A DNA stretch of 59,312 bases from Kofleriaceae bacterium (GTDB lineage: Bacteria; Myxococcota_A; Polyangia; Haliangiales; Haliangiaceae). A program made the translations under genes and the position numbers. Below, in pieces: positions 10,234 through 59,312 of the stretch. Location: assembly GCA_018058095.1 (NCBI GenBank), contig JAGPCO010000034.1, positions 1 through 59,312 of the forward strand, read 5' to 3'. Below the pieces are notes generated by a model. That model had not been told where the DNA came from. It ran no database searches and saw nothing but the letters and a program-made list of their open reading frames with translations. The first letter of the stretch is position 1. Each line of letters begins with the position of its first letter.

Positions 10234-10657
10234 GGGAGGCTTCCACCTGGGGGCGAAGGGTGGCGAGGAGGCGATGGCTGATGGCGGAGGCGAGGGCCTC
10301 GGGCGGGCCGACCAGGTCGGCCAGGCCGTTGCGGGCCACGGCGCCCGGCATGCCCCAGACGGTCGAGCTGTCCTGGTCCTGCACCATGATGGTGGCGCCG
10401 GCGGTCGCCAGGAGCCGACAGCCATCGAGGCCGTCGACGCCCATGCCGGTCAGGACCACGGCGAGCGCGCGCCCGCCCCAGACCTCGGCGGCCGACTTGA
10501 AGAGCACGTCGACCGCCGGCTTGACCGAGTGGACGAGCGGTCCGTCGTCGAGCACCAGCTCGACCGCGTCGCCGCGCCGGACCACCCGGAGGTGGACGCC
10601 GCCGCGGGCGATGTAGACCACCCCAGGCCGGACCCGCTCGGCGCTGGCCTCGACACG
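10217..10657 (-). pseudogene. cheB: CheB methylesterase, C-terminal half only
   Basis: What remains is the last 146 codons or so of the CheB methylesterase domain: RVRPGVVYIARGG, then HSVKPAVDVLFKSAAEVWGG, then VVLTGMGVDGLDG, which carries the catalytic Asp. The whole receiver domain and the half of the esterase carrying the catalytic Ser and His are missing. Recognisable sequence stops at about 10650-10657, directly against an oppositely oriented fragment of another receiver-domain gene. A GTG at 10621 could start a 134-residue peptide, but it could not be an active esterase. The frame itself is undamaged, so the truncation looks recent or is an assembly join. Confidence 0.85.
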
Positions 10658-33062: not shown

Positions 33063-33773
33063 TCAGCGGCCGCGGCCGAGGTCGCGCGCGGCGCGCTGTT
33101 CGATCTGGGAGAAGCCCTCGATGACGCGCATGAGGGACTCGTACGTGCGCGAGACCTTGACCAGGTCGACCACGCCGCGCACGACGTTGACGTTGCTGGC
33201 CTCGAGCAGGCCCGACACCACCTTGGGCGGGTCGCCGGCCTGGGGCTGGCCGCGGGCGATGAGCAGGTTGCCACCGTCGTGGCCGAGCTGGTTCGGGGCG
33301 AACCGGGCCAGCGCCAGCTTGCCGACCACCGCGCCGTCGGCGCTGATCGTGCCGTCGTCGCCGACGGCGATGGCGCTGGCATCGGGCGGGATGATGAGCT
33401 CGCCGTCCTCGCCGCGCACGGCCAGGCCGTCGCCGTTGACCAGGCGCCCGCCGTCGTCGAGCGTGAAGTTGCCGGCCCGGGTGTAGCGCAGCCCCTGTGG
33501 GGTCTCGATCGTGAAGTAGCCCTCGCCGTCGAGCGCGAGGTCGAGCGGGTTGCCGGTCGCGGCCAGGGCCCCGGACGAGGCGTCGATCGCGCTCGGCGAC
33601 GCGCCGACCAGCTGGGTGTCGGGCGACCGGGCCTGGGCCAGGGCCTCGCTGAAGACCATGCGGCCGCCGCGGAAGGCCGGGGTGGCCGCGTTGGCGACGT
33701 TGTTGGCGGTGACGTCGAGCGCCTGCGACTGCGCGACGGCGCCGGCGGTGGCGATGTAGATGCCGCTGCCCAT
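33063..33773 (-). CDS. flgF: FlgF, proximal rod protein
   Basis: A 236-residue rod protein. It starts MGSGIYIATAGAVAQSQALD, then VTANNVANAATPAFRGGR, and ends EASNVNVVRGVVDLVKVSRTYESLMRVIEGFSQIEQRA. Divergence from FlgG (VKVSRTYE, not LISGQRAYE) marks it as FlgF. Its ribosome binding site (GAGGAG, 8 nt before the ATG) is contributed by the last copy of the 83-bp repeat, so its translation is tied to those micro-ORFs. Confidence 0.92.
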   Translation of the reverse strand: MGSGIYIATAGAVAQSQALDVTANNVANAATPAFRGGRMVFSEALAQARSPDTQLVGASPSAIDASSGALAATGNPLDLALDGEGYFTIETPQGLRYTRAGNFTLDDGGRLVNGDGLAVRGEDGELIIPPDASAIAVGDDGTISADGAVVGKLALARFAPNQLGHDGGNLLIARGQPQAGDPPKVVSGLLEASNVNVVRGVVDLVKVSRTYESLMRVIEGFSQIEQRAARDLGRGR

Positions 33774-33775
33774 GG

Positions 33776-33856
33776 TCAGCTCTCCTCGTCGGTCATGTCG
33801 GGATCGCCCACGTGGGTGGGCGGGTCGTCGAGGACGAGCCCGTGCGGATTCGCCAT
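33776..33856 (-). CDS. 26-codon micro-ORF, copy 3 (next to flgF)
   Basis: Encodes MANPHGLVLDDPPTHVG followed by DPDMTDEES and stop. The last ten residues equal those of FliA. GAGGAG lies 8 nt before its ATG, inside the preceding copy, and its own end supplies GAGGAG for flgF. It has no known family. It could be a coupling cistron whose translation carries ribosomes to flgF, or untranslated duplication debris. Confidence 0.45.
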   Translation of the reverse strand: MANPHGLVLDDPPTHVGDPDMTDEES

Positions 33857-33858
33857 GG

Positions 33859-33939
33859 TCAGCTCTCCTCGTCGGTCATGTCGGGATCGCCGACGTGGGT
33901 GGGCGGGTCGTCGAGGACGAGCCCGTGCGGATTCGTCAT
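33859..33939 (-). CDS. 26-codon micro-ORF, copy 2
   Basis: Same peptide as its neighbours except Thr instead of Ala at position 2 (MTNPHG); its second base difference, in the Val codon before GD, is silent. Start, stop, spacing and the GAGGAG site are intact. Two changes with no loss of frame hint at either recent origin or selection on the frame. Confidence 0.45.
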   Translation of the reverse strand: MTNPHGLVLDDPPTHVGDPDMTDEES

Positions 33940-33941
33940 GG

Positions 33942-34022
33942 TCAGCTCTCCTCGTCGGTCATGTCGGGATCGCCCACGTGGGTGGGCGGGTCGTCGAGGA
34001 CGAGCCCGTGCGGATTCGCCAT
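33942..34022 (-). CDS. 26-codon micro-ORF, copy 1 (next to fliA)
   Basis: Identical in sequence to copy 3. Its ATG lies 2 bases after the fliA stop codon (TGACCATG), with GAGGAG from the fliA end as ribosome binding site. It would therefore be translated by ribosomes finishing fliA. Confidence 0.45.
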   Translation of the reverse strand: MANPHGLVLDDPPTHVGDPDMTDEES

Positions 34023-34024
34023 GG

Positions 34025-34771
34025 TCAGCTCTCCTCGTCGGTCATGTCGGGATCGCCGTGGTGCGGGTCGATCTCCGTCCGCAACCGGGCGATGGCCCGG
34101 CCGTGCAGCTGGCACACCCGCGAGGTGGTCACGCCCAGGACCTGGGCGATCTCGCCGTAGGTGAGCTCCTCGTTGTAGTACAGCGACAGCACCAGCACGT
34201 CGCGCTGCGGCAGGCGGCCGAGCGCGGCCCGCACCTTGCGCATGGCCTCGCGCCGCTCGGCCTCGTGTGCCGGCGAGGCGTCGCCGGAGGTGATCGACGA
34301 GGCGTACGGGCGCTCGTCGGTGGTGTCGAGCACGCCGATGGTGACGTGGACCAGCTGCTCGAGGCGCTCGCGGTAGACCTCGACGGTGACCCCGAGCGCA
34401 GCCGCGACCTGCTCGTCGTCGGGCGTGCCGCCCAGGCGCTTCTCGAGGTCGGCGATGGTGGCGCCGACCTTGCGCGCCATCTGCCGCACCCGGCGCGGCA
34501 TGATGTCGCCGCGGCGCAGCTCGTCGAGCACCGCGCCGCGGATGCGCTTCTCGGCGAAGACCAGGAACGGCTCCTGCCGGGTGTCGTCGTAGCGGTCGGC
34601 CGCCTCGGCCAGGCCGAGCATGCCGGCGGCCACCAGGTCCTCGCGCGCGATCCAGTCGGGGCAGCGGCGCGCCATACGCAGCGAGATGCGGCGGGCGATC
34701 TCGATGTGATCGGCGATCAGGCGGTCGCGCTCGGCGGACGGGCGGCGGGCGGTCTGGGCGTAGGCCTTCAT
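34025..34771 (-). CDS. fliA: FliA, flagellar sigma-28 factor
   Basis: A 248-residue group-3 sigma factor. Region 2 has REDLVAAGMLGLAEAADRYD and FLVFAEKRIRGAVLDELRRGD, with RRVRQMARKV after it. Region 4 has LPQRDVLVLSLYYNEELTYGEIAQVLGVTTSRVCQLHGRAIARL, the FliA form of the -35 recognition helix-turn-helix. The tail GDPDMTDEES is duplicated in the repeats downstream. The ATG overlaps the flhG stop. It should direct transcription from the flgM and fliC promoters. Confidence 0.95.
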   Translation of the reverse strand: MKAYAQTARRPSAERDRLIADHIEIARRISLRMARRCPDWIAREDLVAAGMLGLAEAADRYDDTRQEPFLVFAEKRIRGAVLDELRRGDIMPRRVRQMARKVGATIADLEKRLGGTPDDEQVAAALGVTVEVYRERLEQLVHVTIGVLDTTDERPYASSITSGDASPAHEAERREAMRKVRAALGRLPQRDVLVLSLYYNEELTYGEIAQVLGVTTSRVCQLHGRAIARLRTEIDPHHGDPDMTDEES

Positions 34772-57730: not shown

Positions 57731-57797
57731 AGCCGTGCAGCGCCCGCCGCCGCTGCTGCTGCTGCTGCTGCTGCTGCACCGGCGGCTTTGGCTGCTG

Positions 57798-57932
57798 TGG
57801 CTGCACCTGCTGCTGTGGCTGCACCTGCTGCTGTGGCTGCACCTGCTGCTGTGGCTGCACCTGCTGCTGTGGCTGCACCTGCTGCTGTGGCTGCACCTGC
57901 TGCTGTGGCTGCACCTGCTGCTGTGGCTGCAC
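57798..57932. repeat. 18-bp tandem repeat, seven copies plus half
   Basis: Seven identical units TGGCTGCACCTGCTGCTG at 57798, 57816, 57834, 57852, 57870, 57888 and 57906, then a 9-bp partial copy. Preceded by a CTG run (57752-57777). On the minus strand one frame reads (VQPQQQ)n followed by a Gln run. Near-perfect identity of units shows recent expansion. Confidence 0.95.
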
Positions 57933-58376
57933 GTGCCGCGCCCGCTGTACGGGGGCAGGCCCTCCCAGATCCACGTCGGCCCCCCGTGCAGATCACCACC
58001 GCCGCCGGGCGCGGGTCCTGCCGCTTCGGCAAGGGTCCCTCATCCGCTCAGACATCCGCGGGCTGCCTAGAGCGTGGGGCCCAGGTGCGGAGCGAAGCAT
58101 GACGCAGTCCATGACGCCCGAACGAAGGCCCGCGGAACTCGCGACTGAGGGACCCGTTGCCTCCGCGTCACCCCCGCCCGGCGGCAGCCCACGGACCATG
58201 CGTGCCATCGCGGGCCGACGGCGTGGCACGCGTGGCTTTGCGCAGGACTGCGAGCCAAGCGCCGTCCCGACGGGCCCGGATTTCAGGGTGGACCGCGAAC
58301 CTCGGGCGGCCCGGGCGGCCCGCGGCCGGTGAGGGCGGCGCCGAGGCCCTGGGCCCCGGCGGGCGGGCCCGGCCCG

Positions 58377-59035: not shown

Positions 59036-59312
<277 letters not shown>

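Follow-up and report, generated by a model that had tools for sequence, protein, structure and literature searches.

A lineage-specific tandem array at the fliA-flgF junction of a myxobacterium-like genome as a candidate translational relay

Between the flagellar genes fliA and flgF of an uncultured, myxobacterium-like bacterium, we identified three head-to-tail copies of an 83-bp unit, each carrying a micro-ORF. The arrangement is probably best explained as a relay through these micro-ORFs, which arose as a side effect of local duplication and which translational coupling renders harmless. The window analysed, a stretch of 59,312 nt, is one entire contig of a 7.57-Mb genome (227 contigs, 97% complete). 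Its flhA, flhF, MinD/FleN-type ATPase, fliA, flgF and flgG genes, recognised by sequence or position, form an ordinary flagellar cluster, and the identities originally predicted for fliA and flgF agree with their Pfam domains (Table 1).

Tandem repeat analysis (TRF) of positions 33770-34057 revealed a period of 83 with 3.5 copies, a 98% match and no indels, a repeat far beyond chance; the half copy within the 3.5 is the tail of fliA, whose final 36 nt make up this partial first copy. Each unit consists of ATG, 25 further codons (26 counting ATG), TGA and CC, and its translation up to the stop is MANPHGLVLDDPPTHVGDPDMTDEES. Units 1 and 3 have the same sequence; unit 2 departs from it in two places, GCG to ACG (Ala to Thr, giving a version that opens MTNPHG) and GTG to GTC (silent). 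At each of the four joints the stop and the following start are +2 nt apart, and every ATG, that of flgF included, is preceded by GAGGAG at a distance of 8 nt. Three units and two leading spacer bases thus account for the 251 nt between fliA and flgF. Both the layout of the copies and the differences among them had been read in the same way in the original prediction.

Table 1. Features of the fliA-flgF junction and of two further relays in the genome
Feature	Position	Strand	Evidence
Three 83-bp tandem units	33774..34022	-	TRF + copy alignment
Unit 1 / unit 2 / unit 3	33940-34022 / 33857-33939 / 33774-33856	-	
fliA (sigma-28, 248 aa), upstream gene	34025..34771	-	ORF + Pfam Sigma70_r2/r3/r4
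fliA tail segment common to each unit (GDPDMTDEES, TGA, CC)	34023..34058	-	100% match to unit positions 48-83
Micro-ORF 1, 26 codons, begins 2 nt past fliA stop	33942..34022	-	
Micro-ORF 2, 26 codons, Ala2 to Thr and one silent change	33859..33939	-	
Micro-ORF 3, 26 codons, same as micro-ORF 1	33776..33856	-	
GAGGAG, Shine-Dalgarno-like, for micro-ORF 1; within fliA	34031..34036	-	
GAGGAG site, micro-ORF 2	33948..33953	-	
GAGGAG site, micro-ORF 3	33865..33870	-	
GAGGAG site, flgF; within micro-ORF 3	33782..33787	-	
flgF (236 aa), gene downstream of relay	33063..33773	-	ORF + Pfam Flg_bb_rod, FlgE/F/G D1, Flg_bbr_C
Second relay, FtsJ-like rRNA methyltransferase gene (rlmE-like) to Sua5/YciO gene (yciO-like)	L090 16639-17051, contig C4		Pfam
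Third relay, DUF58-like gene to BatA/VWA gene	L208 1545-1713 and L159 62-234, ends of contigs C117 and C76		

Comparison of this junction in related genomes, suggested as a check alongside the original prediction, was carried out here. The named relatives nearest in FliA sequence (67-74% identity) are metagenome-assembled genomes (MAGs) labelled Kofleriaceae, Myxococcales or Deltaproteobacteria. In all 19 relatives having both genes, the two overlap: by 8 nt in 7 genomes, 4 nt in 10 and 1 nt in 2. None of the 19 has an array there. Because these relatives overlap the two genes without an array, the array is a lineage-specific addition splitting an ancestrally coupled junction. A more distant named MAG, likewise free of an array, shows a spacing of +20 nt with its own AAGGAG. 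In several relatives the flgF Shine-Dalgarno (SD) site is already located in the fliA tail; a duplication spanning the junction therefore carries SD, stop and start as one.

We propose that a lineage-specific tandem duplication of this junction, comprising the fliA stop and the flgF SD and start, created a relay resembling the mycobacterial interspersed repetitive units (MIRUs). Ribosomes ending FliA at its TGA would restart 2 nt further on, aided by the GAGGAG of the fliA tail they have just translated; they would read 26 codons, terminate, do so twice more and then start flgF. The array would in this way part two ancestrally overlapping genes while every stop-to-start step stays at +2 nt. 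In E. coli reporters of native pairs, a gap of about 38 nt abolishes 80-100% of reinitiation and one of +2 nt costs 5, 20 or 70%, and in Haloferax reporters reinitiation is almost gone at about 20 nt (PMC10666635). Since little coupling is left at about 20-40 nt and part of it survives at +2, only the micro-ORFs could keep fliA and flgF coupled: the 251-nt gap would uncouple flgF, whereas four +2 steps would not necessarily do so. If the published losses multiply, four such steps leave 0.81, 0.41 or 0.008 of coupling. Micro-ORF translation and the supply of flgF by reinitiation are predicted from sequence, and the earlier reading of the array as a chain of re-initiation cistrons from fliA to flgF fits the anatomy, the overlaps of the 19 relatives and this distance dependence. 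The 83-bp copies are too alike for reading-frame selection to show, and flgF may also start independently of the relay, via its own GAGGAG.

Two other functions for the array were considered and rejected. The micro-ORF products matched no Pfam family at E <= 1, which led us to discard a peptide function, and a structured RNA was discarded in view of a sole Rfam match, which lay on the opposite strand and scored below threshold (isrB, 19.5 bits versus 35). No internal promoter or terminator was found in the array.

The origin of the unit could be traced in part. The final ten micro-ORF residues equal the FliA C-terminus, and the unit shares 36 identical nt with the 3′ end of fliA. Within the non-shared stretch, the second half resembles the fliA tail through a 13-nt gapped match (1.1% of shuffles are as good), and the first ~24 nt matched no donor in flgF or elsewhere in the genome. 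Of the proposed derivation from the fliA 3′ end plus a leader, the fliA 3′ end is borne out and the leader is partly traced; the unit also contains the stop/SD/start of the fliA-flgF junction. Excluding the array and the fliA tail, the best match to the unit in the whole genome has an E value of 0.002 over 28 bases. In general, tandem duplication across a coupled junction yields an ORF of exactly this kind, running from the downstream gene's head, whole or partial, into the upstream gene's tail.

A survey of tandem arrays with a period of at least 40 bp, covering 2.07 Mb (27%) of the genome, uncovered two further relays feeding a co-directional gene (Table 1); very lax TRF settings returned mostly codon-periodic noise. 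The micro-ORFs of the second relay are 44, 32, 32 and 30 codons long, and each of the five joints is a GTGA overlap. They open with VSALRLHIE, the N-terminus of the downstream gene, three of them end in APR, as the upstream gene does, and the copies are only 88% alike, their lengths differing in multiples of 3. Its origin is clear, as 27 nt at the head are identical to those of the downstream gene. The third relay consists of 28-codon units with ATGA overlaps at the joints and endings that are the same or nearly the same as the upstream C-terminus DDLVLRIFRSGGFLR; the upstream gene, behind a MoxR-like frame, is a putative DUF58 gene as judged by sequence, position and neighbours. The two contig ends that carry this relay overlap yet hold differing versions of the DUF58-BatA array, which may reflect population variation or assembly trouble. 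The units of the three relays derive from the ends of their own neighbouring genes and, because they are unrelated in sequence to one another, the relays represent independent events of one kind. No rlmE-yciO array was seen in two relatives (G026 and G004), whose matches directly adjoin, and a search for the DUF58-BatA array gave a single gene-tail match in each of about 15 relatives. A 0.4-Mb sample of one relative (G019) contained no clear periodic relay.

Gene-tail duplication seems to be common in this genome. Four arrays of gene 3′ ends that include the stop codon have no coupled downstream gene: L121 (2694-3212) and L179 (7892-8236) lie between convergent genes, and L081 (3121-3323) and L169 (1250-1399) follow gene ends with no tightly following gene. 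Since such arrays also occur, the duplication itself is probably an ordinary mutation and no evolved regulator. L121 and L179 form chains of -4 overlaps by chance, although no gene is fed, so that finding an open chain within an array is by itself no proof. The open micro-ORFs are likewise less remarkable in light of a simulation of 50-120 bp duplications of the junctions of 16 relatives, in which the relay stayed intact in about 35%.

These observations, together with the GAGGAG that flgF has at the right distance, favour a neutral account, in which a recent duplication that left incidental micro-ORFs was tolerated through the complete SD and ATG of flgF, and translation of flgF has become independent of that of fliA. 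We regard this account as possible but rather unlikely, given that the overlapping junction is kept in 19 of 19 relatives and that folding predictions place most of the flgF SD in pairs (mean unpaired 0.20). Furthermore, relay competence is seen in each of the three arrays found at coupled junctions, one of which has diverged copies; the chance of this without selection is about 0.04 in this small sample. This result is at most suggestive of a filter acting at coupled junctions, as the relay proposal would hold: relay-competent duplications would survive selectively there, and others would uncouple the downstream gene.

An adaptive account draws on RNA folding. In the fliA array, pairing is possible between each SD and codons 6-10 of the micro-ORF after it, in a predicted hairpin of -19.3 kcal/mol. 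This pairing energy is matched in 0.4% of shuffles that keep dinucleotides and in 2.3% of permutations of the codons, and folding of the whole fliA array gave a z of -3.2. According to this folding model, SD masking would favour ribosomes coming from upstream. The array could then act as a variable-number contingency locus, in which the ratio of FlgF to FliA is set through units being gained and lost and the hairpin tightens dependence on the incoming ribosome. The identity of units 1 and 3, indicating recent exchange or expansion, is consistent with such a tuner, as are the differing DUF58-BatA versions, which may be variation or assembly. However, masking in the other two relays is no stronger than in shuffles, and we rejected the hairpin as a general principle; the flgF SDs of the relatives are also poorly accessible. 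Adaptive tuning of expression by the array is possible, but this tuner is improbable.

That the array is an assembly artefact, the true locus holding a different copy number, is very improbable: the assembly is fragmented into its 227 contigs and another such array (DUF58-BatA) lies at a contig break, but the fliA array lies mid-contig, in a contig of 59 kb, and the two private differences of copy 2 argue against simple assembler stutter.

For the proposed relay, the closest known case by anatomy is the MIRUs. These are described as short operon units with a small ORF coupled to its neighbours, inserting with little harm to the downstream gene (Supply et al. 1997, cited in PMC12548453 and PMC4213456), as three 77-bp units in senX3-regX3 of strain H37Rv (PMC4213456), and as interspersed homologous elements, thought mobile, with -4 nt spacing (PMC12548453). 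The fliA array similarly comprises short tandem intergenic units in an operon (83 bp x 3). The small ORF in each may be coupled to its neighbours, the stop-to-start spacing by sequence being +2 over four joints compared with -4 in MIRUs. Unlike a MIRU, the unit has no interspersed homologous copies, the whole genome having been searched, and whereas MIRUs are regarded as mobile and inserted at a start codon, it shares 36 nt with the upstream gene tail. This identity is what local duplication would leave and, with no further copy present, speaks against mobile insertion. Because the unit is not interspersed and derives from a local gene tail, we would not file the array as a MIRU.

Between genes of the same strand, stop-start distances from -8 up to about +10 nt are taken as predictive of coupling (PMC6728339, PMC10666635). 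The array joints, at +2 nt, fall inside this range and, as in termination-reinitiation pairs, the SD lies in the tail of the upstream gene; such pairs make a single step between genes, whereas the array makes four steps through micro-ORFs that are not genes. Bicistronic designs and short upstream ORFs (PMC12548453; PMC13255528) share a short ORF with an internal SD right before the target start, but those are engineered or single leaders, whereas the array presents three natural copies in series within an operon. The original statement that no described flagellar operon has such a device holds as far as literature searches reach, and does not extend beyond flagellar operons. Nor is the array unique, as two more operons of this genome have relays and MIRUs follow the same design (PMC12548453, PMC4213456).

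Coupled operons should resist interruption. The arrays suggest a general route by which a duplication spanning stop, SD and start brings its own bridge, letting genes drift apart with coupling intact, and offer an origin of MIRU-like elements without mobility. A broader proposal, which we advance tentatively and consider unlikely as a whole, is that coupled junctions duplicated in tandem have given rise, time and again in this lineage, to locally made relays of the MIRU type, with three unrelated examples in roughly a quarter of the genome. Such relays would be kept open by selection for coupling, and their changeable copy number could tune operon stoichiometry without touching either gene. 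The arrays also constitute a natural test of reinitiation through several micro-ORFs in series, measurable with simple E. coli reporters.

Other repeats were recorded in the window and elsewhere in the genome. The window contains further tandem arrays at 2292-2545 (28-bp units x 9), 57791-57936 (18-bp unit x 8, 99% identity) and 59050-59308 (long repeats at the contig end). A ~130-bp tandem array of tRNA-Met(cat) pieces lies at the end of contig C61 (L145 10203-10559), with one complete tRNA predicted at 10398-10469 and remaining copies that look partial. Related intergenic repeats occur on two contigs (L117 188-365 and L079 10515-10647) with GTTTACATAACGCCCCACTCCGCGACCCATCCCCTG in common, and one of them adjoins an ORF resembling a REP-associated transposase.
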